NCBI GenBank assembly: GCA_013141125.1
Contig: JABFRO010000001.1
Span: 1,364,001-1,428,000, forward strand
DNA: 64,000 nucleotides
Source of the DNA: Methylophilaceae bacterium
GTDB lineage: Bacteria; Pseudomonadota; Gammaproteobacteria; Burkholderiales; Methylophilaceae
Reading direction: 5' to 3'
Of this stretch, positions 7,024 to 57,850 are shown piece by piece. Under the pieces are notes generated by a model. That model saw nothing but the letters and a program-made list of their open reading frames with translations, was not told the origin of the DNA and made no database searches. Both the position numbers and the translations under genes were made by a program. Each line of letters begins with the position of its first letter. Positions within the stretch are counted from its first letter, which is position 1.

Positions 7024-7812
7024 TCAGACTAAGCAGCCAAAATTCAAAGTTCGCTCTGTCTCTGGCAGATCCCACATAGCATCATAGCCTACGCCTGTTA
7101 GATACAAACCCGCAGGTGAAAATGTAGGTGGGGATAGTCTGCGATCGCGTGATGCCAGCAGCGTTTCCATATACTCAGGTTTATATTTGCCCTTACCAAT
7201 ATAAACGAGCGCACCCACCATATTTCTTACTTGATGATGCAAAAAAGCACCCGCACAAAAATCAAACAAGTAGCCATTTCCAATCTGCACGACGCTGGCA
7301 CGATGCATAAATTTGACAGGTGATTTCGCTTGACACTCAGCGGCTCGAAACGCACTAAAATCATGCTGCCCCAATAAATATTCGGCGGCAAACTGCATCG
7401 CTCCAATATCCAGGGGCAAATGAAACCAACCAGCCTTACCTGCCATCACCGCCGGGGCAACAGGTTGATTAATTAACAAGTATTGATAGCTGCGTTGTTG
7501 CGCATCAAACCTGGCATGAAAACGCGCATCCACCGCTTGCGCCCATAATACGCGAATACTATCTGGCAGATTGGCATTAACACCCCGCACCCATGCCGAC
7601 ATAGGTCTTGTTGTCAATGTGTCGAAATGTACAATCTGGCTCAGTGCGTGCACGCCTGCATCGGTGCGACCCGCCGCAGAAACACGAAGTGTATGATTCG
7701 CCATTTTTTGCAAAGCATGCTCCAGACAGTCTTGAATTGCGCCCCCGTTAGCTTGGCTTTGCCAGCCACAATATTTTGCCCCGTCATATTCAAGCCCAAG
7801 TGCAATTCTCAC
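7024..7812 (-). CDS. truA: tRNA pseudouridine(38-40) synthase
   Basis: Makes pseudouridine at positions 38-40 of tRNA anticodon arms. The 262-residue protein has the catalytic Asp in AAGRTDAGVHA and the family segment HHQVRNMVGALVYIG. I chose the GTG at 7812 over a TTG at 7818. The GTG overlaps the preceding stop in a GTGA arrangement (4 bases), typical of coupled translation, and gives the family-like start MRIALGLEYDG. It follows the EcfT-like gene and precedes trpF, a common arrangement in betaproteobacteria. Confidence 0.94.
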   Translation of the reverse strand: MRIALGLEYDGAKYCGWQSQANGGAIQDCLEHALQKMANHTLRVSAAGRTDAGVHALSQIVHFDTLTTRPMSAWVRGVNANLPDSIRVLWAQAVDARFHARFDAQQRSYQYLLINQPVAPAVMAGKAGWFHLPLDIGAMQFAAEYLLGQHDFSAFRAAECQAKSPVKFMHRASVVQIGNGYLFDFCAGAFLHHQVRNMVGALVYIGKGKYKPEYMETLLASRDRRLSPPTFSPAGLYLTGVGYDAMWDLPETERTLNFGCLV

Positions 7813-8747: not shown

Positions 8748-11591
8748 TCACTCAAGACTATTCAATAAACGTTGTGCACGTTGACGTTGCTGTGACCCAC
8801 CCTCTAACAACACCTCCTCTAGCAGCTCACGCGCGCCCTCTTTATCATCCATATCAATATAAGCTGTCACCAAATCCAGCTTGGTATCAACCTCCGATGA
8901 TTCATTTACCAAGACAACATCCTCAATGACGACCTCTTCATCCGGCACATTAAGGTTGAGATCTGGCAAGCCTAACTCGGGTATGGTGCTGGCAGAAAGT
9001 TTTGGTGATAAATCCAAGCTCTGCGCATCCTCATTATCGAACGCAATATTAAAATCAAAATCCAGCTTATCGGATTTCTCTGATTCAGCTTCAACTTTTT
9101 GATCGTCTGCAATTGCATCAATATCTATATGACTATCAAGCTCAGGCAGTTGTAAATTCAAAGTCTCGGTTACTGATTCTGCTGACACAGGGAGCAGATT
9201 TTCCCCGTCGGCAATTTCCATTTCCGCTTCTTTTTCTGTCACATCTCCAAAACCTGATTCTTCTATCAGTAGATTAGGCATATCCAACGCCGCGCTGGCT
9301 ATTCGATCACCGATACTCAAAGAGCCAATAACCTCTTCGGAAGGTTTATTTTCAACAGATACTTCTTTCAATTCAACTTCAGGCTCAGTTGATTCAAATT
9401 CCAGCAAAATTTCATTTTCACCACTAGTAAGCTCGGTATCTATTTTATCTACAATATCTGTTGCGACGTTGCTATCAAAATCAAGAAGTGTCTCATCTTT
9501 TGTGTCTTCCGACCAAACCATGGATTTATCTTGCTTCTGTTTTAATTCGACAAAACTATCTGCATCTGCGGCATCTGCGGCATCTGCGGCATCTGCGGCA
9601 TCTCGCGCATCACTGCCATCAATAGCATTAATGTCCGACTTATCCGCAATTACGTCATCAGCAGCTTCATTTGTGATAGTAGCTCGTTGGTATAGCGGAT
9701 TATCCGGCTCCATTTCATGGCCTATTTCAGCAATTTTAAGCCACACAGGGTCACCAGCACCCAAAGTTGAATAAAGCTCTCCAGCTACAGCATCAAAGGC
9801 CAAACTGTCTTTACGCCCAGCATAAATCTCAAGCAACTTGAGAGATAAATCATGACGCTTTGGCTCTTTTGCGATGGCATCTTTAAGAATTTCTTCTGCT
9901 TGTATTTCACGTCCGTAAGCCATATAAACCTCAGCTTCGGCTAACGGATCCACGTCATGCGTATCTATCATGCCACCGGTGCCGTGAGTGAACGCTGTAA
10001 GAAAAGAAGTATCGCCCGTATCCACAGTTCCACCTGCAGTACTACCGAATACCGTTTTAGCGTTAAGGCCGCCAGTGGTCAAAATGTCTTGCTCGAACTT
10101 ATCCAAGCTGTGCATGCGCCGATTGCGCAAAAACAACCAGCCGCCAACAGACAATACCAAAGCCGCACCTGCGGCACCAAGCAACACAACATTTTCCATT
10201 AAGCTATCAACTATACCGCCAGCCGCAGCTGGTGGCGAAGCAGAGGCTTTGACAGACACATCAGGCCGAATAGTTTTCAGCGGTTTATCACTTGCTTTTA
10301 ACGCTGGCACTTCTGGCTGACTAGACGCAGTTTTGGCTTGCGGCTCTAAAACAGCGACCGCTGTTGGTTGAGGGTTTGCCTGACTCATTGATTTTTTAGA
10401 TTCAGTCATTGATTTTTCAGCTAATTTTTGCAAATCAGCCATTGCCTGACCTTTCAATTCCAGCAATTTTTGCATATCCTCAAGCTGCTTAGTCAAGGCA
10501 GCGATGCGTTCATTAGCTTCTTTTATCCTTCCATCATTAGCCACGGCCTCTTCCTGAAGCGCGTTTTGTTGCGCTTGTACCGTTGCTTCGCTCGTCCTTT
10601 TACCCGTTACAACATCACCTTTGGAAAGCTTAACGACATCACGTGATCCACTCGCTAACGGCCGCACAAGCTCTTCTGCAGGTTTGGTTATTCGTCCGCT
10701 TGCCGTTTTTTTTGATACTTCCGCTCCCAACGCTTCAGATCCGGCAACCACTTCGGCAAGCTTATTTCGATAGGCATTCCAATTTGCTACTTGTACTTGA
10801 ACCTCCTTGCTTGCCTCACGCCTATCAATAGCACCAAGTTCAACGCCTGCAGGTATGCGAATTATTTGTCCAACTTTTAGCCTATTGATATTGCCACCTA
10901 TGAATGCATTGGTGTTGGCTCTATACAGCCCAACAAGCATTTGATCCAAGCTGACATTTTCAATAGGTTTTTGTCTGGCAATTCCAAGCAAAGTATCACC
11001 ACGCTTTACTTTATATTCATCACCAGCAGAACTGCCTGACAGCGAACGTGCCGGTGAAGTCTGTCTTCTATCACTTTTTCTGCCCTGCCTGGCGGGAATA
11101 TCAACCAGGACATCCTGGCCGGAGTTAACATTCCCCATTGAGCGCCTGCTTTCTGGCGCTTCTGCATTGGGTACATTATTATTTGAAGAATAGCCTGGAG
11201 GATCTAGCAGAGCCGTATATTCGCGTATTAAACGCCCTGAATTCCAATCGACCTGAATCAGCATATCCAAATAAGGGTCACTCACCGGCTGTGATGTACT
11301 CAACTTTAAAACATGCGTTCCATCCGCCTTTTTAGCTAGCTCTATTTTAATAGAGCTATGAAATGCAGTTCGCTCAACGCCCTGTGCCGAATAAGCAGTA
11401 TCAGGCGCAATGGCTGCAGATAAAGAAGATAACTCTTCGGTGCTAACGGACAGCAACTCAATTTCAGCCCTTAACGGCTCACCGAGAGCTGAACTAACAT
11501 TCATTTTACCCAAGCCTGCTGCGTCTGCTGCAAGCGATGCCATTGCAAGCCATACGGCGAATGTCACACGCTTTAGTTTTGACCTATGCAC
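8748..11591 (-). CDS. fimV: FimV-like polar peptidoglycan-binding protein
   Basis: A 947-residue FimV/HubP-type protein that organises pole-associated structures such as type IV pili. A signal peptide (about 1-25, ending ADAAG) leads into the FimV N-terminal domain (about 27-130). A LysM peptidoglycan-binding motif follows (about 192-248, YKVKRGDTLLGIA), then a coiled coil rich in Glu and Lys. One membrane span (VVLLGAAGAALVLSVGGW) precedes a very acidic cytoplasmic region and the C-terminal FimV TPR-like domain (DLVTAYIDMDDKEGARELLE). An Ala/Asp low-complexity stretch is encoded by a 9-bp tandem repeat. Its position next to asd-leuB and truA is usual for the lineage. Confidence 0.9.
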   Translation of the reverse strand: MHRSKLKRVTFAVWLAMASLAADAAGLGKMNVSSALGEPLRAEIELLSVSTEELSSLSAAIAPDTAYSAQGVERTAFHSSIKIELAKKADGTHVLKLSTSQPVSDPYLDMLIQVDWNSGRLIREYTALLDPPGYSSNNNVPNAEAPESRRSMGNVNSGQDVLVDIPARQGRKSDRRQTSPARSLSGSSAGDEYKVKRGDTLLGIARQKPIENVSLDQMLVGLYRANTNAFIGGNINRLKVGQIIRIPAGVELGAIDRREASKEVQVQVANWNAYRNKLAEVVAGSEALGAEVSKKTASGRITKPAEELVRPLASGSRDVVKLSKGDVVTGKRTSEATVQAQQNALQEEAVANDGRIKEANERIAALTKQLEDMQKLLELKGQAMADLQKLAEKSMTESKKSMSQANPQPTAVAVLEPQAKTASSQPEVPALKASDKPLKTIRPDVSVKASASPPAAAGGIVDSLMENVVLLGAAGAALVLSVGGWLFLRNRRMHSLDKFEQDILTTGGLNAKTVFGSTAGGTVDTGDTSFLTAFTHGTGGMIDTHDVDPLAEAEVYMAYGREIQAEEILKDAIAKEPKRHDLSLKLLEIYAGRKDSLAFDAVAGELYSTLGAGDPVWLKIAEIGHEMEPDNPLYQRATITNEAADDVIADKSDINAIDGSDARDAADAADAADAADADSFVELKQKQDKSMVWSEDTKDETLLDFDSNVATDIVDKIDTELTSGENEILLEFESTEPEVELKEVSVENKPSEEVIGSLSIGDRIASAALDMPNLLIEESGFGDVTEKEAEMEIADGENLLPVSAESVTETLNLQLPELDSHIDIDAIADDQKVEAESEKSDKLDFDFNIAFDNEDAQSLDLSPKLSASTIPELGLPDLNLNVPDEEVVIEDVVLVNESSEVDTKLDLVTAYIDMDDKEGARELLEEVLLEGGSQQRQRAQRLLNSLE
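9562..9597. repeat. 9-bp tandem repeat inside fimV
   Basis: Four perfect copies of GCATCTGCG followed by a degenerate fifth. On the coding strand they encode an Asp-Ala-Ala run in the acidic cytoplasmic region of FimV. The unit is a multiple of three, so slippage would change length without shifting the frame. Confidence 0.9.
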
Positions 11592-46957: not shown

Positions 46958-47533
46958 ATGAGCATTAAATCCGACAAATGGATACGCCGCATGGCAGAAC
47001 AACACGGCATGATAGAGCCGTTCGAGCCGAATCAGGTCAAGCAGAATGCCAATGGCGAGCGCATGGTGTCCTACGGCACCTCCAGCTACGGCTACGATAT
47101 ACGCTGCTCGCGTGAATTCAAGCTGTTTACCAATATCAACAGCACCATTGTTGACCCGAAAAATTTCGATCCCAATTCCTTCGTCGAAGTGAATGCCGAT
47201 TACTGCATCATCCCGCCCAATTCCTTTGCCCTGGCCAGAACCGTGGAATATTTCCGTATCCCGCGCAATGTACTGACCATCTGTCTGGGCAAATCCACCT
47301 ACGCGCGCTGCGGTATCATCGTCAACGTCACCCCGTTTGAGCCCGAGTGGGAGGGCTATGTCACGTTGGAATTTTCCAATACTACACCGCTGCCCGCCAA
47401 AATCTACGCCAACGAAGGCTGCGCGCAAGTGCTGTTTTTTGAAGCCGACGACAATGATATTTGCGAAACCTCCTACAAAGATAGAGGCGGCAAATACCAG
47501 GGGCAGGTTGGCGTGACACTGCCCAAGATATAA
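46958..47533 (+). CDS. dcd: dCTP deaminase
   Basis: Deaminates dCTP to dUTP as the main dTMP precursor route. The 191 residues show [12 protein letters not shown], the substrate-binding [10 protein letters not shown], and the catalytic Glu in [17 protein letters not shown]. The C-terminal [14 protein letters not shown] is intact. It marks the last ordinary gene before the AT-rich His-Xaa-Ser region; the hxsA start is 111 bases downstream. Confidence 0.97.
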
Positions 47534-47644
47534 ATAGCCATGTCAAACGTTAAATTAGTTCTATTAAGTATTTGTGAATATTTAATAGTAATATTGACAA
47601 CTAGTACTTGGGGGGTTCATAGTCGTATTAACCTAGGAGGCAAT

Positions 47645-47923
47645 ATGAATAATAAACGTAAATTTCTGATTCCATTGGTAGCTTTAGCTAGTGCTTTCAT
47701 TACAGGTAATGCTTCAGCAAATGTTGCTAATAACGTTACTGAAACAGTAACTCAAAGCTCAAGCAGTCAAAATGAAAATGTTGTTGCTAACAACGCTGAT
47801 GTGTTCAAGTTCATCTTGAAGACCCCAGCTCAAAGTCAATTCATGGCTTACCATAGCTCACACAGTTCACATAGCTCTCATGCGTCACACGCATCTCATA
47901 GCTCGCATCAATCTGGTTATTAA
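47645..47923 (+). CDS. hxsA: His-Xaa-Ser repeat peptide, HxsA-like precursor
   Basis: A 92-residue precursor-like peptide. A Sec-type signal sequence (KRKFLIPLVALASAF, cleavage likely after NASA near residue 25) is followed by an Asn/Ser/Thr-rich spacer. The C-terminal tail has seven consecutive His-Xaa-Ser triplets starting at the His after FMAY and ending QSGY. These repeats are what the Hxs radical SAM enzymes are believed to act on. I chose the ATG at 47645, preceded by AGGAGG four bases away, over an in-frame ATG at 47540. A TTGACA at 47594 could be a -35 box, but no good -10 is seen. It overlaps hxsD by one base (TAATG). Confidence 0.85.
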   Translation: MNNKRKFLIPLVALASAFITGNASANVANNVTETVTQSSSSQNENVVANNADVFKFILKTPAQSQFMAYHSSHSSHSSHASHASHSSHQSGY

Positions 47924-48231
47924 TGGTAAGTGTTGCTGTTGAACTCGTCTTTGATGAGCGATTATATTCTTTAGAGGCTGTTCAAAAAGCAGCGTATAGG
48001 TTTATTCATCTTTTCACTACGGACATGAGCTTAAGCGACGGCAAGATTGTTTGTTCTCTAAAGCCAACGCAAGAGCAAACGCCTGAGGGTCTAGAGCATT
48101 ATGTTGATGAGTTTAAGAAAGAAGTTCTAGACCAACATTTGAGAATTAAGATAAAAGCTGAAACTGAGGATGTGCGTAATCTAGTTTTAGGTATTGCGTT
48201 CTCAAACTCAGGGTTATTGGCTAGTGAGTAA
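47923..48231 (+). CDS. hxsD: His-Xaa-Ser system protein HxsD
   Basis: A 102-residue cytoplasmic protein always found beside the two Hxs radical SAM genes; its role is unknown, perhaps in precursor recognition. The conserved C-terminal part reads EVLDQHLRIKIKAETEDVRNLVLG, matching the family's Leu-rich DxxLR and TExVRNL pattern, followed by AFSNSGL. It starts at the TAATG overlap with hxsA, and its stop overlaps the GTG of hxsB by 8 bases, so all genes are translationally coupled. Confidence 0.82.
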   Translation: MVSVAVELVFDERLYSLEAVQKAAYRFIHLFTTDMSLSDGKIVCSLKPTQEQTPEGLEHYVDEFKKEVLDQHLRIKIKAETEDVRNLVLGIAFSNSGLLASE

Positions 48232-48331
48232 ATTCCATCAAAAAGAACATTACCTATCAACTGAAACAGAATACAAGCTTCTTCCTTTTAAGTTTGATCG
48301 GCTGAATGATAGCGAATACGTTCTAACTAAC

Positions 48332-50216
48332 GACGCTGTAGAAAAACCCCATTCTAAACCGCCCGTTTATTCCGCAGAGAATTTTTTAAAATGCGCATTT
48401 TCATCCATCCCCAGCCCCTTTTTCGATGTTCATTCATTCCCGCCGTTTTTTTGCCCGGTTCACCGTGTTAGTCCAGCCTATGGGCACTTCTGCACACGCA
48501 TGGTTACCTTCCTGATCCCGGCCTCAGCTGGCATAACCATGATGCGCCAGTTTCTCCACGTTATGCATCAAACAATACAGCTTCCATTGCCCATCCACTT
48601 TATCTTTGCCACGTAGCGTAAAGCGGTGCAGATGTTTATTCCCGCGCAAGTTGCCAAACACGGGTTCCACGGTGGCAAAGCGGCGTGTAATCATTGCCTT
48701 TCCACGCGCACTGTCGATCCTGGCTTTCATTTGTTCCAACACACTGGGGCTGGAATCGCGCCTCCCCTGCAAAAAGGCCACTTGCCGGACCAGTGTTTTA
48801 TCCGGGGTGCGTAAGCACTCGTTACGTTTGTCGCATGGCACACAATCCTGTTTGGCTCCCGAGAATTTGAGGGCGATGCGTCCGCCTATGGTGCAATTGG
48901 AACCATTGCCATACAGTCGTTTTCCGCCCGGACACAGGCAGTGCGAATGATCCTCGGCCAATACAAAGTCGGCAGGCTTGAAACAGCGGGCTTTCTTTTT
49001 GTGTGTGGCGACTTTCCCTGACCTGGCCTTGTTCCACAACGGATCCGGTTTGGCCGTATGAATCCCCTGGTCGGCATAGCGCTCATCGCGCTTGCGGTAA
49101 TCCGGGTCGGGGATATAGGCTTCGATGGATTGGGTGGCCAGTGCCTGGCAATTGCTTTCCGAATAATATCCGGCATCGGCGGTAATCACCGTTTCCGGTG
49201 TCATATAGGCGGCGACGGCTTTTATCGCGGGGAGCAGCAAGGCTTGTTCCGAGCCGGTGCCGTGGGCTTCTGCATCCAGAATGATCTGCGCTTTCTCATC
49301 CACGGTAGCGACACCGGTATAGCCTTGCACCACGCCCTTGCCGGTGGCCATTTTGGCGGATTCGTTATCAGTGCGGTTGGAGAGGATGACGCTGCCACGG
49401 CTGCCCTTGCGGTCATGGGGGTTGGCTTGCAGCCAGTCACGCAGTTGGGTGGCCTCCTTTTGCAATCGCGCGAGCTTGTTGGCCTCGCGTTGCCCCATCG
49501 CTGCCTCCGTGAGCGCGGCATCGGCGCGTTGGTGTTTCTCCAGCAGGGTCTTGGCGGCTTGCTCCATTCTCTCCATTTGCCGCTGATAATCGGCGCGTGT
49601 GCCGGATTTGGCCTTGCTGGCATTGGCGGGCAGTTTAACGCCGTCAATGGCAAACATCTCGCGCCCGATCAAGCCCTGACGATCACACACCAGCAGCACT
49701 TGGGCAAAGAGGGAGGCGATGGCATCGCCCATGCCGGACACAAAGGCGGCAATGGTGCTGAAGTGGGGTTGGCTGTCACCGGAGACGGCGATAAAGACTA
49801 TGTTCTCGCGGCAGGCGGCTTCTATCCTGCGGCTGTAAAGGAGGCCGCGACTGTAGGCGAGCAAAATGATCTTGAGAAGTGCGGCGGGGTGATAGGCGGA
49901 AGCGCCACCGTCGTCGTTCTGGTAACGCGCATGGAAAGCAGAAAGATCGAGTTCGTGATCGATGAGATGGCACAAGGCATGTTCAAAGGTGCCGGGGAGG
50001 ATTTGCTGGTCAAAGTCAACGGCCAGGAGTTTCAGGCCTTTGTGGGTGGGTTTGAAACGTGCCATGGGGAATTCCTGCCGAGCCAGTGAATTGGAATGGC
50101 GGAATTATAACATAAAATCAAGCGGCTACCATCAATAACTTCCAATAAAACAATGGCTTGGGTGAATTCGCGGGGTGGAATTGGGCAAAATTCGGAGGGG
50201 GTTTTTCTACAGCCTC
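48332..50216 (-). mobile_element. IS1182-like insertion sequence, copy 1, inside hxsB
   Basis: A 1,885-bp element with terminal inverted repeats of 19 bases differing at one position (GACGCTGTAGAAAAACCCC and GAGGCTGTAGAAAAACCCC), flanked by the direct repeat AAC (48329-48331 and 50217-50219). It encodes one transposase on the minus strand. Ends and duplication were fixed by comparison with copy 2 and its empty site. The IS1182-like assignment rests on the transposase architecture and is moderate. Confidence 0.92.
48524..50065 (-). CDS. IS1182-like transposase, copy 1
   Basis: A 513-residue DDE transposase that moves its own element. The N-terminal DUF772-like region (about 15-110; ALCHLIDHELDLS, YHPAALLKIILLAYS) precedes the catalytic core, which has a first Asp in FAIDGVKLPANASK (about 147) and a second in TADAGYY. 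A Cys-containing block (CLCPGGKRLY, CVPCDKRNECL) follows, then a C-terminal RRFATVEPVFGNLRGNK segment supplying the Glu. The frame is intact, so the element may still be active. It differs from copy 2 at about a dozen residues. Confidence 0.92.
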   Translation of the reverse strand: MARFKPTHKGLKLLAVDFDQQILPGTFEHALCHLIDHELDLSAFHARYQNDDGGASAYHPAALLKIILLAYSRGLLYSRRIEAACRENIVFIAVSGDSQPHFSTIAAFVSGMGDAIASLFAQVLLVCDRQGLIGREMFAIDGVKLPANASKAKSGTRADYQRQMERMEQAAKTLLEKHQRADAALTEAAMGQREANKLARLQKEATQLRDWLQANPHDRKGSRGSVILSNRTDNESAKMATGKGVVQGYTGVATVDEKAQIILDAEAHGTGSEQALLLPAIKAVAAYMTPETVITADAGYYSESNCQALATQSIEAYIPDPDYRKRDERYADQGIHTAKPDPLWNKARSGKVATHKKKARCFKPADFVLAEDHSHCLCPGGKRLYGNGSNCTIGGRIALKFSGAKQDCVPCDKRNECLRTPDKTLVRQVAFLQGRRDSSPSVLEQMKARIDSARGKAMITRRFATVEPVFGNLRGNKHLHRFTLRGKDKVDGQWKLYCLMHNVEKLAHHGYAS

Positions 50217-51572
50217 AACCTTTCAGGTGAGTTTACAGTCGTAAAAAATAATGAGTTGGATAGGGTGGTTAACCATCAGCTGAGTCCTGATGAGCCTTTG
50301 TATTCAGACCTTCGTTCTAGACAATTCATATATGAGCTTAATGACAAAGCTCCTATTCAGCTTCTAGCATTAAAAGTAAGGACGAAGCTTTCTAGACTCG
50401 CTAATTTCACCAATTTACACATTTTCGTCGTTACTCTTCGTTGTGACCACAGTTGTCCATATTGTCAGGTCTCGCGTCAGTCAGAAGATAAAGCTGCTTT
50501 TGATATGACAAAAGAAATGGCGGATAAGGGTTTGGATTTGGTTTTCCGTTCGCCATCACCTGCACTCAAGATAGAGTTTCAGGGCGGGGAGCCTCTGCTA
50601 AACTTTGAGCTTGTTAAATATATAGTTCTTGAGGCTGAGAAGCGTAATGAGAGTTTAGGTAGGGATTTGGCTTTCGTTATAGCAACCACTCTATCTCTTC
50701 TTACGGATGAAGTATTAGACTTCTGTAAAGCTCACAACATTTATCTGTCATCATCGCTTGATGGTGTTGAAGAACTTCATAATACAAACCGACCTAGAGC
50801 TGGCAAAAACAGCTATCAGAAATTTATTGAGGGGTTGGACAAGGCTAGGTTGTCTTTAGGCTTCAATAGTGTGTCTGCTTTAATGACGACAACAGAGCAA
50901 AGTCTTCCCCAAGTTAAATCAGTTATAGATGAGTACCTTCGTTTGGGTTTTAATGGGATATTTCTTAGGCCTTTATCGCCTTATGGCTTTGCTATTAAAA
51001 CCAAAAAGTATCGTGCTTACAACACCGAGCGTTGGCTTGATTTCTACAAAGAAGGTTTGGCATACATAATAGAGCTGAATAAAAGCGGTATCAGGTTCAC
51101 CGAGCAGTACACATCGTTAATTCTTACAAAGATGCTAACTTCAAATGACCCTGGATTTGTTGACTTAATGAATCCTTCAGGTGCGGGGATTGCAGCTATT
51201 GTAATTAACTATGATGGTGGGGTGTATGCTTCCGATGAAAGTCGTATGCTTGCAGAGATGGGTGATGAAAGTTTTAGGTTGGGTCATATTGAGCATAATA
51301 CCTATGAAGAGATTATGCTTTCAGACAAGCTTTTAGATGCCTTAGAGGATTCATTTACACTCAGTGTCCCCATGTGTTCGGATTGTGCCTTTGAGCCATA
51401 CTGTGGTGCAGAACCTGTATATCATCACGCGGTATATGGGGACACGGTAGCAAGAAAACCTGAGTCAGAGTTCTGTAAACGCAACATGGCAATATTCAAA
51501 CATCTAATTGAACTTATGCGTTCAGATGCTGAGACAAAACAAATATTCTTAGGTTGGGCTAATAGATGCTAA
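50175..51572 (+). CDS. hxsB: truncated HxsB radical SAM enzyme, core domain intact
   Basis: The longest frame left after the insertion starts at a GTG inside the insertion-sequence end and encodes 465 residues. The first 15 come from the element and replace the native 36. The radical SAM cluster motif is CDHSCPYC (Cys90, 94, 97), a glycine-rich EFQGGEPLLNFE block binds SAM, and a Cys-rich SPASM-like tail (CSDCAFEPYC, then EFC) could bind further clusters. No good ribosome binding site precedes the GTG, so expression is uncertain. It overlaps hxsC by 7 bases. Confidence 0.75.
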   Translation: MELGKIRRGFFYSLNLSGEFTVVKNNELDRVVNHQLSPDEPLYSDLRSRQFIYELNDKAPIQLLALKVRTKLSRLANFTNLHIFVVTLRCDHSCPYCQVSRQSEDKAAFDMTKEMADKGLDLVFRSPSPALKIEFQGGEPLLNFELVKYIVLEAEKRNESLGRDLAFVIATTLSLLTDEVLDFCKAHNIYLSSSLDGVEELHNTNRPRAGKNSYQKFIEGLDKARLSLGFNSVSALMTTTEQSLPQVKSVIDEYLRLGFNGIFLRPLSPYGFAIKTKKYRAYNTERWLDFYKEGLAYIIELNKSGIRFTEQYTSLILTKMLTSNDPGFVDLMNPSGAGIAAIVINYDGGVYASDESRMLAEMGDESFRLGHIEHNTYEEIMLSDKLLDALEDSFTLSVPMCSDCAFEPYCGAEPVYHHAVYGDTVARKPESEFCKRNMAIFKHLIELMRSDAETKQIFLGWANRC

Positions 51573-52729
51573 AGCTTGGGGGTAGGGTTGTAGAGATAAA
51601 GTCTCAGGAAGTTAACAACAATGAGCTTTTTAGCGTTAGCACTAAAGAAGATTTACCCAAAGTACTAAGAGCTTCTAGAGCGTTCTTAGTGAGTGACGCT
51701 GACGTTCCTGAAGGCTTTAAGCACTATTTAATTTTGGAGAGCGTTGCTCACCTCATAAACGCATTGCCAGTTAATTCTGAATATACGGTTCTTCCACAAG
51801 ACTACTCATACATAGCAGATGAGGATGTAATTAGGATTTCAAAAGACAAGTCTTCGATAAGAGTTCTTTATCGAGCTTCTTCACCCAATAATGGGATACT
51901 TATTTCTGAGCAATGCAATCACTATTGCTTGATGTGCTCTCAGCCTCCCAAGGCTATAGACGACTCATGGCTGTTAGCTGAGGCAGCCCAGTTAATAAAG
52001 TTAATTCCTCAGTACACCAGAGAAATCATCTTCACAGGCGGCGAGCCTACGCTGTATGGGGGAAAATTCTTGGATATCTTAAGGTTGGCAAAAAGCTACC
52101 TTCCTAATACCAGTGTCCATATTTTGTCTAATGGGCGAAGTTTCAAAAGTGATGCCTTTACAAAAAGTTATTCGCTTATTGACCATCCTGACATGATGGT
52201 TGGTATTCCAATTTATTCTGATGATCCTGCACAGCATGATTATATAGTTCAAGCTAAGGAAGCTTTTGATGAGGCAATTTTAGGGATTCTAAACCTTAAG
52301 AAGTATGAGCAAAAAGTTGAAGTTAGAGTAGTGCTTCATAAGCAGTCAATTGGTAGACTCAGGCAGCTTTGTGAGTTCATTGGAAGAAACTTGCTATTTG
52401 TAGACCATGTAGCCCTAATGGGACTTGAGATGACGGGTTTTACTAGAGCCAATCTTGATGAGCTTTGGATAGACCCTTATGACTATAAAGATACGTTAAG
52501 TGATGCCGTGAAAATACTAGCTGGTTATGGGATGAATGTATCTGTCTATAACCATCAGCTGTGCTTGGTTAACGATGACATAGCGCCTTATTATAAGAAA
52601 TCTATTAGTGACTGGAAAAATGAATACGTCGAAGAGTGTGATGGCTGCAAGAGGCTAAGTGAGTGTGGCGGTTTCTTTTCTTCAGGTGTTCAGAACGGTT
52701 ATAGTAAGAAACTAACTGCTTTTAAGTAG
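51566..52729 (+). CDS. hxsC: His-Xaa-Ser system radical SAM protein HxsC
   Basis: A 387-residue second radical SAM enzyme of the system. The cluster motif is CNHYCLMC (Cys117, 121, 124), followed by the SAM-binding IIFTGGEPTLYGGKF. C-terminal cysteines (358, 361, 367, in CDGCKRLSEC) suggest an auxiliary metal site. Its chemistry on HxsA is unknown. The ATG overlaps the hxsB stop by 7 bases. The gene is complete and as AT-rich as hxsB and hxsA. A long palindrome begins exactly at its stop codon. Confidence 0.87.
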   Translation: MLKLGGRVVEIKSQEVNNNELFSVSTKEDLPKVLRASRAFLVSDADVPEGFKHYLILESVAHLINALPVNSEYTVLPQDYSYIADEDVIRISKDKSSIRVLYRASSPNNGILISEQCNHYCLMCSQPPKAIDDSWLLAEAAQLIKLIPQYTREIIFTGGEPTLYGGKFLDILRLAKSYLPNTSVHILSNGRSFKSDAFTKSYSLIDHPDMMVGIPIYSDDPAQHDYIVQAKEAFDEAILGILNLKKYEQKVEVRVVLHKQSIGRLRQLCEFIGRNLLFVDHVALMGLEMTGFTRANLDELWIDPYDYKDTLSDAVKILAGYGMNVSVYNHQLCLVNDDIAPYYKKSISDWKNEYVEECDGCKRLSECGGFFSSGVQNGYSKKLTAFK

Positions 52730-52820
52730 CGCGGTAGGTTGGGCAGAGCGGTAGCGAAGCCCAACATTCAAGGAATTGTTTATTGTTGGGCTTCATTGCA
52801 TTCTGCCCAACCTACCGCGC
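52729..52820. repeat. long palindromic repeat (REP-like hairpin) downstream of hxsC
   Basis: Outer arms of 19 bases (GCGCGGTAGGTTGGGCAGA at 52729-52747 and its complement at 52802-52820) plus inner arms containing GAAGCCCAACA and TGTTGGGCTTC can fold into one long hairpin. GTAGGTTGGGC-type palindromes are common intergenic repeats in proteobacterial genomes. The left arm overlaps the last base of hxsC, so it may also end or stabilise the hxs transcript. Confidence 0.8.
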
Positions 52821-52864
52821 TGGTGGCTTGTATGCGTAAATTGCTGGTGATTTTGAATGCCATA

Positions 52865-52905
52865 TAAAATTAGGGTCAGTCTCGAATAGCGCTTACTTAA
52901 ACGTT
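52865..52905. repeat. 41-bp AATTAGGGTCAGTCTCGAAT repeat, copy 1
   Basis: Start of duplication unit 1. It recurs at 55288-55328 with one difference (GCGCTT versus GCACTT). Sequences beginning AATTAGGGTCAG are often seen around IS200/REP-type elements, but no transposase of that kind is present here. It ends in GTT, the target of insertion sequence copy 2. Confidence 0.75.
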
Positions 52906-54790
52906 GAGGCTGTAGAAAAACCCCCTCCGAATTTTGCCCAATTCCACCCCGCGAATTCACCCAAGCCATTGTTTTATTGGAAGTTATTGATGGTAGCCGC
53001 TTGATTTTATGTTATAATTCCGCCATTCCAATTCACTGGCTCGGCAGGAATTCCCCATGGCACGTTTCAAACCCACCCACAAAGGCCTGAAACTCCTGGC
53101 CGTTGACTTTGAGCGGCAAATCCTCCCCGGCACCTTTGAACATGCCTTGTGCCATCTCATCGATCACGAACTCGATCTTTCTGCTTTACATGCGCGTTAC
53201 CAGAATGACGACGGTGGCGCTTCCGCCTACCACCCCGCCGCACTTCTCAAGATCATTCTGCTCGCCTACAGTCGCGGCATCCTTTACAGCCGCAGGATAG
53301 AAGCCGCCTGCCGCGAGAACATAGTCTTTATCGCCGTCTCCGGTGACAGCCAACCCCACTTCAGCACCATTGCCGCCTTTGTGTCCGGCATGGGCGATGC
53401 CATCGCCTCCCTCTTTGCCCAGGTGCTGCTGGTGTGTGATCGTCAGGGTCTGATCGGGCGCGAGATGTTTGCCATTGATGGCGTTAAACTGCCCGCCAAT
53501 GCCAGCAAGGCCAAATCCGGCACACGCGCCGATTATCAGCGGCAAATGGAGAGAATGGAGCAAGCGGCCAAGACCCTGCTGGAGAAACACCAACGCGCCG
53601 ATGCCGCGCCCACGGAGGCGGTGATGGGGCAACGCGAGGCCAACAAGCTCGCGCGATTGCAAAAGGAGGCCACCCAACTGCGTGACTGGCTGCAAGCCAA
53701 CCCCCATGACCGCAAGGGCAGCCGTGGCAGCGTCATCCTCTCCAACCGCACTGATAACGAATCCGCCAAAATGGCCACCGGCAAGGGCGTGGTGCAAGGC
53801 TATACCGGGGTCGCTACCGTGGATGAAAAAGCGCAGATCATTCTGGATGCCCAGGCGCACGGCACCGGCTCGGAACAGGCCTTGCTGCTCCCCGCGATAA
53901 AAGCCGTGGCGGCCTACCGGACACCGCAAACGGTGATTACAGCCGATGCCGGGTATTACACGGAAAGCAATTGCCAGGCACTGGCCACCCAATCCATCGA
54001 AGCCTATATCCCCGACCCGGATTACCGCAAGCGCGATGAGCGCTATGCCGACCAGGGGATTCATACGGCCAAACCGGATCCGTTGTGGAACAAGGCCAGG
54101 TCAGGGAAAGTCGCCACACACAAAAAGAAAGCCCGCTGTTTCAAGCCTGCCGACTTTGTATTGGCCGAGGATCATTCGCACTGTCTATGCCCGGGCGGAA
54201 AACGACTGTATGGCAATGGTTCCAATTGCACCATAGGCGGACGCATCGCCCTCAAGTTCTCGGGAGCGAAACAGGATTGCGTGCCGTGCGACAAACGCCG
54301 CGAATGCTTACGCACCCCGGACAAGACACACGTCCGGCAAGTGGCCTTTTTGCAGGGGAGGCGCGATTCCAGCCCCAGTGTGTTGGAACAAATGAAAGCC
54401 AGGATCGACAGTGCGCGCGGAAAGGCAATGATCACACGCCGCTTTGCTACCGTGGAGCCTGTGTTTGGCAACTTGCGCGGGAATAAACGTTTGCACCGCT
54501 TTACGCTACGTGGCAAGGACAAGGTGGATGGGCAATGGAAGCTGTATTGTTTGATGCATAACGTGGAGAAACTGGCGCATCATGGTTATGCCAGCTGAGG
54601 CCGGGATCAGGAAGGTAACCATGCGTGTGCAGAAGTGCCCATAGGCTGGACTAACACGGTGAACCGGGCAAAAAAACGGCGGGAATGAATGAACATCGAA
54701 AAAGGGGCTGGGGATGGATGAAAATGCGCATTTTAAAAAATTCTCTGCGGAATAAACGGGCGGTTTAGAATGGGGTTTTTCTACAGCGTC
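52906..54790 (+). mobile_element. IS1182-like insertion sequence, copy 2
   Basis: A 1,885-bp element in the opposite orientation to copy 1, with the same terminal inverted repeats and a 3-bp GTT duplication (52903-52905 and 54791-54793). The uninterrupted site is preserved at 55321-55340 in the neighbouring repeat unit, reading AAACGTTGCAGAAAG. That shows exactly which bases came with the element. Confidence 0.94.
53057..54598 (+). CDS. IS1182-like transposase, copy 2
   Basis: A 513-residue DDE transposase with the same layout as copy 1: DUF772-like N terminus, FAIDGVKLPANASK, TADAGYY and the C-terminal VEPVFGNLRGNK. An AGGAA site precedes the ATG, and a TATAAT at 53013 could be its -10 box. 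Substitutions against copy 1 include FERQ for FDQQ, TEAV for TEAA, YRTPQTV for YMTPETV and KRREC for KRNEC. The two copies are therefore not a fresh duplicate pair. The frame is intact. Confidence 0.92.
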   Translation: MARFKPTHKGLKLLAVDFERQILPGTFEHALCHLIDHELDLSALHARYQNDDGGASAYHPAALLKIILLAYSRGILYSRRIEAACRENIVFIAVSGDSQPHFSTIAAFVSGMGDAIASLFAQVLLVCDRQGLIGREMFAIDGVKLPANASKAKSGTRADYQRQMERMEQAAKTLLEKHQRADAAPTEAVMGQREANKLARLQKEATQLRDWLQANPHDRKGSRGSVILSNRTDNESAKMATGKGVVQGYTGVATVDEKAQIILDAQAHGTGSEQALLLPAIKAVAAYRTPQTVITADAGYYTESNCQALATQSIEAYIPDPDYRKRDERYADQGIHTAKPDPLWNKARSGKVATHKKKARCFKPADFVLAEDHSHCLCPGGKRLYGNGSNCTIGGRIALKFSGAKQDCVPCDKRRECLRTPDKTHVRQVAFLQGRRDSSPSVLEQMKARIDSARGKAMITRRFATVEPVFGNLRGNKRLHRFTLRGKDKVDGQWKLYCLMHNVEKLAHHGYAS

Positions 54791-54793
54791 GTT

Positions 54794-55282
54794 GCAGAAA
54801 GTCGCTCGCCTGGAGCCTGGCAGGGGCGAACAAAAGCGTTATCTTGTCCCCCAGGCTTTCAACGAGGGCATTGACCCACTCTACACGTCGAATGGTGTTT
54901 TGCATCCACCTGGCTGGCAAACGCCGCCCAAACTCCCAGCCAGCCACCATTGAAATCGGGGGGGAATTTCTTTGATGTGCTCATGGCTGTCTCCTCCCGG
55001 AGATTGGAGATCCTCCAGACCCGGAGCCATTCAGTATTAAATCGTCATGAAAACAGAGGATTTTTACATTATCATAGCGCTCAATTGAATTTGCCGGATG
55101 CTATAGCGGCATCATTTTTAGCGTTTATTAAAGGTCATTATGAAATTTCGCTTCCCCGTCATCATTATTGATGAAGACTTCCGCTCCGAAAACTCCTCCG
55201 GTCTGGGGATACGCGTGCTGGCCAAAGCCATTGAGGATGAGGGTTTTGAGGTGCTGGGGGTGACCAGTTATGGTGATCTCGC
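54794..55282. repeat. tandem duplication unit 1, right part (upstream region and 5' end of decarboxylase gene)
   Basis: With 52865-52905 this forms the first of two tandem units; the second is 55288-55752. The units are nearly identical apart from scattered base changes and a 65-base segment (54807-54871) missing from unit 2. Each contains the decarboxylase upstream region, its ribosome binding area and its first 47-48 codons. A minus-strand frame of about 60 codons across 54765-54950 is not convincing as a gene. Confidence 0.88.
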
Positions 55283-55286
55283 TTAA
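55140..55286 (+). pseudogene. duplicated 5' fragment of the decarboxylase gene
   Basis: Encodes the first 48 residues of the decarboxylase (one visible change, Val for Ile at residue 7) and then stops at TAA where the duplication joint begins. It keeps the same upstream sequence as the intact gene, so a 48-residue peptide could in principle be made from an identical promoter region. It is a by-product of tandem duplication, not an independent gene. Confidence 0.9.
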
Positions 55287-55287
55287 G

Positions 55288-55752
55288 TAAAATTAGGGTC
55301 AGTCTCGAATAGCACTTACTTAAACGTTGCAGAAAGTCGCTTGACCCACTCTACACGTCGAATGGTGTTTTGCTTCCACCTGGTTGGCAAACGCCGCCCA
55401 AACTCCCGGCCAGCCACCATTGAAATCGGGGGGGAATTTCTTTGATGTGCTCATGGCTATCTCCTCTCAGAAATTAGAACACCTCCAAACCCGGAGCCAT
55501 TCAGTATTAAATCGTCATGAAAACAGAGGATTTTTACATTATCATAGCGCTCAATTGAATTTGCCGGATGTTATAGCGGCATCATTTTTAGCGTTTATTA
55601 AAGGTCATTATGAAATTTCGCTTCCCCATCATTATTATTGATGAAGACTTCCGCTCCGAAAACTCCTCCGGTCTGGGGATACGCGTGCTGGCCAAAGCCA
55701 TTGAGGATGAGGGTTTTGAGGTGCTGGGAGTGACCAGTTATGGTGATCTCGC
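55288..55752. repeat. tandem duplication unit 2
   Basis: Second copy of the unit, starting with the AATTAGGGTCAG repeat and running into codon 48 of the intact decarboxylase gene. It carries the empty target site of insertion sequence copy 2 at 55321-55340. The 323 bases between the fragment stop (55286) and the decarboxylase start hold this repeat and the presumed decarboxylase promoter, and no other gene that I can see. Confidence 0.88.
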
Positions 55753-57850
55753 CTCCTTTGCGCAGCAGCAAAGCCGTGCTTCGGCGTTTATTCTGTCGAT
55801 TGACGATGAAGAGTTTGTGGAAGGCTCGCAGCAGGCGCTGGATAATTTGCGCCGGTTTGTGGATGAGATTCGTTATCGCAATGAGGAAATCCCGATTTTT
55901 CTGCATGGTGAAACGCGTACCTCACGCCATATTCCCAATGAGATTTTGCGCGAGCTGAACGGCTTTATTCATATGTACGAAGACACGCCGGAGTTTGTCG
56001 CGCGCGTGATTCTGCGTGAAGCCAAGGATTATCTGGATTCATTGCCACCGCCATTTTTTCGCGCACTGGTGCATTATGCGGCGGATGGTTCCTATTCCTG
56101 GCATTGTCCCGGGCATTCCGGCGGTGTGGCTTTTCTAAAATCGCCGGTCGGCCAGATGTTCCACCAGTTTTTTGGTGAAAATATGCTGCGCGCCGATGTG
56201 TGCAATGCCGTGGATGAGCTGGGGCAATTGCTGGATCACACCGGGCCGGTGGCGGCTTCGGAACGCAATGCAGCGCGCATATTCAACTGCGACCATTTGT
56301 ACTTTGTGACCAACGGCACTTCCACTTCCAACAAAATCGTGTGGAATTCCACGGTAGCGCCGGGTGATGTGGTGGTGGTAGATAGAAACTGTCATAAGTC
56401 GGTATTGCATTCCATCATCATCACCGGGGCGATTCCAGTATTTTTAATGCCTACGCGTAATCATTTCGGTATTATCGGGCCTATCCCCAAGGCAGAATTT
56501 GAATGGGAAAACATCAGGAAAAAAATCGAGGCGAATCCGTTTGCGCTGGATAAAAACGCCAAGCCGCGCGTGCTTACCATCACTCAATCCACCTATGATG
56601 GCGTGTTGTATAACGTGGAGGAAATCAAGGAAATGCTGGATGGCAAAATCGACACTCTGCATTTTGACGAAGCCTGGTTGCCGCACGCCACTTTCCATGA
56701 TTTTTATGGCGATTATCATGCCATAGGCGCTGACCGCCCGCGCTGCAAGGAATCCATGGTGTTTTCCACACAATCCACGCACAAAATGCTGGCGGGCCTC
56801 AGTCAGGCCTCGCAGATTCTGGTGCAGGATGCGGAGAATATTCAGCTGGATAGAGATGTCTTCAACGAAGCCTATTTGATGCATACCTCCACCAGCCCGC
56901 AATACGCCATTATTGCCAGCTGCGATGTGGCGGCGGCGATGATGGAAGCGCCGGGCGGCACCGCTTTGGTGGAAGAATCCATTATGGAAGCGCTGGATTT
57001 CCGCCGCGCCATGCGCAAGGTGGATGAAGAATGGGGCGCGGATTGGTGGTTCAAGGTATGGGGGCCGGATGATCTTTCCGAAGAAGGCATAGAAGAGCGC
57101 GAAGCCTGGATGCTGAAAGCGGGCGAACGCTGGCACGGCTTTGGCAATCTGGCCGAAGGCTTCAACATGCTGGATCCGATCAAGGCTACCATCATCACAC
57201 CGGGACTGGATGTGGATGGCGATTTTTCCGATAACTTCGGCATCCCTGCCGCCATTGTCACCAAATATCTGGCGGAACACGGCGTAATTGTGGAAAAAAC
57301 CGGGCTTTATTCGTTCTTCATCATGTTCACCATAGGCATTACCAAGGGCCGCTGGAACACCATGGTGGCGGCGTTGCAACAGTTTAAAGATGATTACGAC
57401 AAGAACCATCCCTTATGGAAAGTGTTGCCGGAATTCGTCTCCAAACACCCGCGCTATGAACGCATAGGTCTGAAAGATTTATGCACGCAGATTCATGAAA
57501 TTTACAAGGCCAATGACGTGGCGCGTCTGACCACGGAAATGTATCTTTCCGACATTGTGCCCGCCATGAAACCCACCGATGCTTTCGCCAGAATGGCGCA
57601 TCGCAGAATTGACCGCGTGCTGATTGATGAACTGAAAGGCCGCATTACCGCCGTACTACTCACCCCCTACCCGCCCGGCATTCCGCTTTTAATACCAGGT
57701 GAACAATTCAATGACATCATCATCAACTACCTGAAATTTGCACGCGCCTTCAACGAACGCTTTCCCGGCTTTGAAACGGATGTGCACGGATTGGTGAAAA
57801 CGGTGGTGGATGGAAAAGCGCTGTATTACGTGGATTGCGTGGCGCAGTAA
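55610..57850 (+). CDS. Orn/Lys/Arg decarboxylase (AdiA/CadA/SpeC family)
   Basis: PLP-dependent fold-I decarboxylase forming a polyamine or agmatine/cadaverine from a basic amino acid. The 746 residues fit the family. A response-regulator-like wing domain (about 1-130, IIIIDEDFRSENSSG) leads into the core. GHSGGVAFLKSPVG, VTNGTSTSNKIVWNS and the Schiff-base lysine Lys392 in STQSTHKMLAG are clear. The C-terminal domain with PPGIPLLIPGE is complete. The length is closest to arginine decarboxylase AdiA, but substrate choice cannot be settled by eye. The promoter region and 5' end are tandemly duplicated upstream. Confidence 0.92.
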   Translation: MKFRFPIIIIDEDFRSENSSGLGIRVLAKAIEDEGFEVLGVTSYGDLASFAQQQSRASAFILSIDDEEFVEGSQQALDNLRRFVDEIRYRNEEIPIFLHGETRTSRHIPNEILRELNGFIHMYEDTPEFVARVILREAKDYLDSLPPPFFRALVHYAADGSYSWHCPGHSGGVAFLKSPVGQMFHQFFGENMLRADVCNAVDELGQLLDHTGPVAASERNAARIFNCDHLYFVTNGTSTSNKIVWNSTVAPGDVVVVDRNCHKSVLHSIIITGAIPVFLMPTRNHFGIIGPIPKAEFEWENIRKKIEANPFALDKNAKPRVLTITQSTYDGVLYNVEEIKEMLDGKIDTLHFDEAWLPHATFHDFYGDYHAIGADRPRCKESMVFSTQSTHKMLAGLSQASQILVQDAENIQLDRDVFNEAYLMHTSTSPQYAIIASCDVAAAMMEAPGGTALVEESIMEALDFRRAMRKVDEEWGADWWFKVWGPDDLSEEGIEEREAWMLKAGERWHGFGNLAEGFNMLDPIKATIITPGLDVDGDFSDNFGIPAAIVTKYLAEHGVIVEKTGLYSFFIMFTIGITKGRWNTMVAALQQFKDDYDKNHPLWKVLPEFVSKHPRYERIGLKDLCTQIHEIYKANDVARLTTEMYLSDIVPAMKPTDAFARMAHRRIDRVLIDELKGRITAVLLTPYPPGIPLLIPGEQFNDIIINYLKFARAFNERFPGFETDVHGLVKTVVDGKALYYVDCVAQ

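Follow-up and report, generated by a model that had tools for sequence, protein, structure and literature searches.

An Hxs operon, foreign to its site and split by an insertion sequence, in a Methylophilaceae bacterium

What is an AT-rich operon encoding a His-Xaa-Ser (HxS) repeat peptide and two radical S-adenosylmethionine (SAM) enzymes doing in the genome of a Methylophilaceae bacterium, how did it get there and can it still work? We addressed these questions for the Hxs operon in a 64-kb window, the whole stretch of DNA that was analysed, which lies on contig C4 of a 3.2-Mb genome; all coordinates are positions within the window unless a locus is named. On the + strand, hxsA2, hxsD, hxsB and hxsC follow each other with overlapping ends between dcd and an Orn/Lys/Arg decarboxylase gene, and hxsB is interrupted by an insertion sequence (IS). 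We read the locus as a horizontally acquired hxsA2-D-B-C operon, presumably a system for a ribosomally synthesized and post-translationally modified peptide (RiPP), in which an IS1182-family element later interrupted hxsB, and whose enzymes HxsB and HxsC would modify the HxS triplets. We put the probability of this reading at roughly 0.6.

To establish what the operon encodes, we scored its proteins in bits against the curated cut-offs of NCBIfam, and also used Pfam. All four exceed the cut-off of an Hxs family: the precursor HxsA2 (47645..47923, +) scores 69.2 bits with NF038296 (cut-off 48), HxsD (47923..48231, +; 102 aa) 61 bits with TIGR03976 (cut-off 50), the 451-codon 3' piece of hxsB (50217..51572, +) 616 bits with TIGR03978 (cut-off 370) and HxsC (51566..52729, +) 382.8 bits with TIGR03977 (cut-off 267.9). 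The initial annotation, made from the letters and open reading frames (ORFs) of this DNA, had assigned these genes to an HxsA/B/C/D set. Its ORF positions agree with the ORF list and the sequence, and the two frames singled out there for a family-profile check, 47923-48231 and 51566-52729, do match HxsD (61 against 50 bits) and HxsC (383 against 267.9 bits). The assignment needs one amendment, as the precursor is HxsA2 and not classical HxsA (TIGR03979), which we rejected at 38.4 bits against a cut-off of 121.65. Translation of 47645-47920 gives a peptide of 92 aa with a signal-peptide-like N terminus and a C terminus that reads HSS HSS HSS HAS HAS HSS HQS followed by GY, which are the seven His-Xaa-Ser triplets that had been described. 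The CxxxCxxC motif that had marked two of the proteins as radical SAM enzymes is present in HxsB and in HxsC, each of which has four further cysteines. In HxsB these seven cysteines are invariant in 28 sequences, the window included, and all lie on the 3' piece; in HxsC, C117, C121 and C124 together with C333, C358, C361 and C367 are invariant in 24 aligned sequences, again including the window. A profile search of the whole genome found one hxsB and one HxsA2 above cut-off.

Next, we compared the site with that in relatives. Placement of the genome in Methylophilaceae is very probable: the Ffh-like protein (gene named by our own reading) of Methylobacillus glycogenes (L096), itself in Methylophilaceae, has 96% identity to its counterpart in one genome of the window's family, 84% to that of the window genome and no more than 74% to those of genomes outside the family, and identities across family members range over 66-96%. 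The decarboxylase gene comes next after dcd in 29 of 29 examined relatives, with no Hxs genes and 16-391 bases between the two matches (the count covers 29 of 40 family relatives in which dcd was found). HxsC is above cut-off in only 5 of 187 family genomes, own included, which belong to 3 of 24 genera, and the operon occupies three or more sites within the family: one relative carries it behind ffh and a tRNA-Lys gene, among the same neighbours as in M. glycogenes, and three genomes of genus g20 carry it near genes that, in our own reading, look like ribonucleotide reductase genes. The genes are thus not core genome, and horizontal arrival at the dcd-decarboxylase site, which had been thought likely, is well supported. 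The base composition fits the description given earlier. G+C content is 38-41% in hxsA, hxsD, the hxsB 3' piece and hxsC and 35% in the hxsB 5' piece, compared with 51.7% in dcd and 51.8% in the decarboxylase gene; since positions 1-35 kb of the window average 44.9%, the difference holds up, though it is smaller than the comparison with these two neighbours suggests. In a quick tree, the window branch lies at the base of a group of Pseudomonas, Bartonella, Gilliamella and Methylobacillus sequences (Shimodaira-Hasegawa-like approximate likelihood ratio support 93), and this tree, in which no starred set holds the window branch, fixed no donor lineage. We also observed nearly identical HxsB sequences in Bartonella (L070, L071 and L074) and in a contig of a Gilliamella metagenome-assembled genome (L075), which reflects either recent transfer or a misplaced 3.5-kb contig. 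In g20, a fifth gene of 188 aa overlaps hxsC (L163:5629-6195, L164:5627-6193 and L165:5877-6443); it has no Pfam match, tblastn did not find it in the other Hxs loci that were searched, and by eye it may encode a membrane anchor.

The second feature of the locus is the break in hxsB. The first 36 codons (48224..48331, +) have no NCBIfam match by themselves, and are 50-56% identical to the hxsB starts of four family relatives, in which the match of the 3' piece directly adjoins the match of residues 1-36. Between the two pieces lies an IS1182-family element of 1,885 bp on the - strand (48332..50216; transposase 48524-50065), flanked by AAC at 48329-48331 and 50217-50219, which is a 3-bp target duplication around an insertion after hxsB codon 36. 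The transposase reaches 267 bits with NF033551, just below the cut-off of 270, and is above the cut-off of Pfam DDE_Tnp_1_6. This genome has three full copies of the element, and the other two are flanked on both sides by GTT, the complement of AAC. Because the IS splits hxsB, the TIGR03978 match starts only at profile position 17. An hxsB ORF of at least 480 aa is present in 51 of 53 named loci, which we had collected by hxsB, and no intact hxsB frame was found in the window. Damaged copies were also seen elsewhere: in Methylobacillus glycogenes hxsB is split by a frameshift in a draft record (L096:7899-9354), through decay or sequencing error, and the pSym plasmid of Cupriavidus necator (L095) carries truncated hxsB and hxsC with no HxS-repeat ORF found, a decayed copy.

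To understand what the break removes, we modelled HxsB from an intact relative, L045 (mean predicted local distance difference test score, pLDDT, 86.1). VIA-align superimposes this model on CteB with Z 30.4 (model residues 19-472, 409 residues, 4.1 Å) and on anSME with Z 32.7 (residues 97-485, 360 residues, 3.0 Å). The N-terminal order of strand-strand-strand-strand-helix-helix-strand-helix is compatible with a RiPP recognition element (RRE), such as CteB has in the aligned region, and suggests that the HxsB N terminus may be an RRE-like winged-helix domain that binds the precursor. Strands 16-18, 21-25 and 30-35 precede the window break, which falls after L045 residue 35, at the end of the third strand. 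On this model, the IS removes three strands of the N-terminal domain and spares the catalytic core. As the IS splits hxsB, this strain is probably unable to complete maturation of the peptide, and its system is probably non-functional; with three HxsB N-terminal strands gone, the peptide would probably be unmodified or only partly modified. An alternative is that the operon still works, where the IS provides the start codon (GTG at 50175) of a shortened HxsB and perhaps also a promoter for it and for HxsC, and with the lost strands dispensable or the peptide bound by HxsD instead. The 3' piece is open and retains the residues that are invariant across the 28 sequences, hxsA2, hxsD and hxsC have no visible damage, and a promoter-like site (9/12) lies in the IS end at 50091-50118. 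We nevertheless consider a working operon quite unlikely: we read no good ribosome site ahead of the GTG, promoter-like sites in the window are near the chance number (11, with 7.9 expected), nearly all named loci keep a long hxsB ORF and the open 3' frame may just reflect a recent insertion.

We then asked which part of the precursor is under constraint, by aligning 56 precursors (from loci L045-L097, L130, L132 and the window; residue numbers are those of the window peptide). In the first six triplets (positions 70-87) the His is kept in 54-56 and the Ser in 53-56 of the 56, and the residue between them varies (S 162, A 48, Y 45 and R 39, among others). Six consecutive triplets are present in 40 of the 56 precursors, and seven in the window peptide. 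Ahead of the core, there is a second conserved block, with F54 in 42, F56 in 49, V or I57 in 53, L58 in 52, K59 in 44, R60 in 40, G64 in 45, M67 in 40 and A68 in 48 precursors; the window peptide carries T60 and S64. This block, FxFVLKR..G..MAYH, is a candidate docking strand for the maturase. A signal-like N terminus was called by a crude hydrophobicity rule in 41 of the 56 precursors and in 53 of 462 other ORFs, and the same rule selected 0 of 54 HxsB, 0 of 52 HxsC and 0 of 46 HxsD ORFs. An HxS-repeat ORF was found in 51 of the 53 named loci. Separately, three loci (L065 at 7265-7549 and 10510-10809, L091 and L092) have two HxS-repeat precursor ORFs for one enzyme set.

For HxsD, the AlphaFold2 model (mean pLDDT 90.6) has the order strand-helix-strand-strand-long helix. 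Most of the top Foldseek rows are Pcc1 chains, with a best E value of 6.6e-3 and none at 1e-3, and VIA-align returns mixed folds, many of them ferredoxin-like, with Z of 8.3 or below. Because these matches are weak and mixed, they support only a general ferredoxin/KH/Pcc1-like fold. No PqqD-labelled chain is among the 50 rows shown of either the Foldseek or the VIA-align list, and the predicted structure does not support HxsD as a PqqD-like RRE.

These features suggest how the intact system might act. HxsA2 would carry a Sec signal, and the block between signal and core would dock on the RRE-like domain of HxsB, with HxsD as a possible adaptor. HxsB and HxsC, each with cysteines for the radical SAM cluster and for one auxiliary cluster, would then modify the His-X-Ser triplets, with export following. 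The product may be a His-Ser linkage within the triplet, or another modification of His or Ser; either seems likelier than a thioether, as the mature part of HxsA2 almost always lacks Cys. We set a thioether product aside for this reason: 55 of the 56 precursors have no Cys in their mature part, one has it there, and the window peptide contains none. Sec and signal peptidase would bring the His-rich peptide to the periplasm or the outside, where metal binding is a first guess at its role. His-rich tails can bind metals without modification, and it could be argued that HxsA2 is an ordinary His-rich export protein with the triplets as a metal-binding tail, the radical SAM enzymes leaving the HxS core covalently unchanged. 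The strict His-x-Ser spacing and the presence of both radical SAM genes in 52 of the 53 loci (in the exception, L057, a short contig ends close to where the hxsC match stops) make this highly improbable.

Several observations weigh against this reading of the locus. The modification chemistry is a proposal from genes and predicted structures. The signal call comes from a simple hydrophobicity rule that 15 of the 56 precursors fail, 13 apparently through an internal Met taken as the start and 2 by falling narrowly short. The window docking segment, F-K-F-I-L-K-T, departs from the usual F-x-F-V-L-K-R, and the RRE reading of the HxsB N terminus draws on strand and helix order and whole-chain alignments. 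A protein of 465 aa that begins at the GTG in the IS end (50175-51569) would have all the cysteines, so partial HxsB activity is possible. Finally, no metal gene was seen to recur beside the operon in the 53 loci, where neighbours were clustered and not annotated.

Comparison with known peptide systems places the operon most closely with Hxs itself: all four proteins are above the family cut-offs, and the coupled A-D-B-C order is that of named relatives. It differs in the IS-split hxsB and in its A2 precursor, and other members have the order D-B-C-A, as on a Klebsiella plasmid. SCIFF/ranthipeptide maturases act on Cys residues, and the four HxsB cysteines outside the radical SAM motif are fewer than in a full SPASM domain. 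Among these maturases, CteB (PDB 5wgg/5why) is the best Foldseek match of HxsB, aligned from the N-terminal domain, and the next-best NCBIfam score of HxsB, 122.9 bits against a cut-off of 340, is for the PapB family NF047865; unlike the substrates of such enzymes, HxsA2 has a nearly Cys-free mature part, and the window peptide has no core Cys to serve as a thioether donor. Triceptide maturases (GrrM/OscB, YhhB) score 39-64 bits against cut-offs of 310-445. The cyclophane (triceptide) motif consists of three residues with an aromatic residue in the first position, whose side chain is crosslinked to the residue two places on; His-X-Ser would fit, and is compatible by sequence alone. Bufferin precursors, as described in the portion of PMC12452194 consulted, likewise have a Sec signal in place of a classical leader, with Sec export shown and signal peptides termed rare among bacterial RiPP precursors. 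By the same partial source, bufferins are matured by MNIO enzymes and their precursors mostly have Cys motifs, whereas HxsA2 has radical SAM partners and no Cys.

To determine whether the operon travels as a unit beyond the family, we examined the 53 named loci; linkage was counted for hxsC and the precursor relative to hxsB. When their ORFs were clustered, no family except HxsA, D, B and C recurred in more than eight loci. The hxsBC genes are lower in G+C than their flanks in 44 of 48 loci, with a mean gap over the 48 of 6.8 points (five loci with less than 5 kb of flank are omitted). Grouped by at least two shared neighbours, 24 Pseudomonas loci fall into 11 groups, seven of which contain one locus each, in some cases on a short contig. 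Between groups, the shared DNA in most cases starts some 100 bases ahead of hxsA and ends close to the hxsC stop; some pairs share up to about 660 bases further, and the most divergent pairs align only in parts of hxsD, B and C. Different flank groups therefore share little more than hxsADBC. Integration at tRNA genes was rejected as a general rule, with a tRNA gene within 500 bases of the operon only in L096 (tRNA-Lys) of 47 loci scanned. An integrase proper to the cassette was rejected as well, as a tyrosine-recombinase-like family (cluster 16, by our own reading) occurs in only 5 of the 53 loci; integrative elements may thus carry some Hxs copies. HxsB is above cut-off in 14 of 398 genomes of a phylum sample, and HxsD in 3 of 369 of a class sample, own included in both.

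Relatives of the operon also occur on mobile DNA. At E 1e-30 or better, hxsB relatives are present in 414 plasmid records, 317 of them from Klebsiella (33-34% identity to hxsB in the Klebsiella matches listed), and at 1e-20 in 2 phage records; predicted viral contigs with such a relative number 16. These IMG/VR contigs, which are predictions and may include host DNA, encode an HxS-repeat peptide in 15 of 16, an HxsC match in 16 of 16 and, by tblastn, HxsD in 5 of 16; in the remaining contigs HxsD is divergent, missing or cut off. The passage of PMC10686908 cited here names Hxs as putative cargo, in an hxsDBCA-like arrangement, of a prophage-like element of Salmonella Typhi. This distribution would suit a modified peptide that acts as an antagonistic or exclusion factor, bacteriocin-like, carried by plasmids and phages. 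We regard such a role as unlikely, as no further family recurs in more than eight of the 53 loci, which leaves the cassette without a constant gene for immunity, a transporter or a protease. In a PADLOC search, the only models that matched the two radical SAM proteins were those of viperin (pVip), at up to 37.5 bits, and a defence system was set aside.

We turn to the remaining features of the site. Upstream, dcd (46958-47533; named from the initial annotation and our own reading of the sequence) is followed by a promoter-like pair, TTGACA-18-CATAGT (47594..47623, +; 10/12 in a consensus scan), and AGGAGG, read from the sequence, precedes the hxsA2 ATG. The promoter call is weak, given the near-chance number of such sites in the window. 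Downstream, a near-perfect palindrome of 94 nt (52728..52821) begins inside the hxsC stop codon. Its RNA fold has -67.4 kcal/mol (z -11.7), it occurs near full length, at 89% identity or more, in 11 places of its own genome, itself included, and it looks like a dispersed repeat of the repetitive extragenic palindrome or miniature inverted-repeat transposable element type. Beyond it lies copy 2 of the IS1182-family element (52906..54790, +; GTT at 52903-52905 and 54791-54793), inverted relative to copy 1, with which it forms an inverted repeat of 1,898 nt at 97%. Mobile elements had been proposed to border the operon, which is correct for this copy after hxsC; the other sits inside hxsB. A composite transposon, in which two inverted IS copies move the hxsB 3' piece with hxsC, was set aside: separate insertions are simpler, as each copy has its own target duplication. 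Further on, the decarboxylase upstream region and frame start are partly duplicated (54871..55287, +) ahead of the complete gene (55610-57850; Pfam OKR_DC_1), as seen from a 300-nt direct repeat at 95%. Together, 52865-52906 and 54794-55640 hold the decarboxylase upstream region and about 46 first codons twice in tandem (95% over 300 nt). A 42-nt repeat precedes each copy of the decarboxylase start, and IS copy 2 lies within the first unit. This tandem duplication may record how the insertion came about.

The Hxs families were named long ago, and the defining Hxs paper is reportedly that of Haft and Basu from 2011. In our literature search, which left most subscription journals outside its reach, we found no paper on the structure, chemistry or role of the Hxs product. 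The sections of PMC9062424 that we cite treat HxsB as a previously annotated cluster, with maturation by HxsB and HxsC as putative, and the portion of PMC8446631 consulted has Hxs names in a gene list of a Pseudomonas aeruginosa genome study. The window operon is an IS-broken copy of this known system in a well-supported horizontal setting. More speculatively, and at a confidence well short of that in the reading of the locus, Hxs might be a mobile RiPP cassette, complete in itself, which passes between bacterial chromosomes, plasmids and phages and has no constant integrase of its own. It would encode a Sec-exported peptide with repeated His-to-Ser linkage, a new exported RiPP class that is perhaps metal-binding, matured with a ferredoxin/KH/Pcc1-like HxsD adaptor beside an RRE-like HxsB domain, and it would be naturally uncoupled in this strain by an IS that removes just the HxsB docking strands. 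At the level of the family, the comparison shows that this peptide system spreads with little beyond the cassette itself. Near-exact cassette limits, a pre-core segment, an almost Cys-free core and a natural split of hxsB together make a compact, testable four-gene target, and what radical SAM enzymes do to His-X-Ser should be easier to test with this set.

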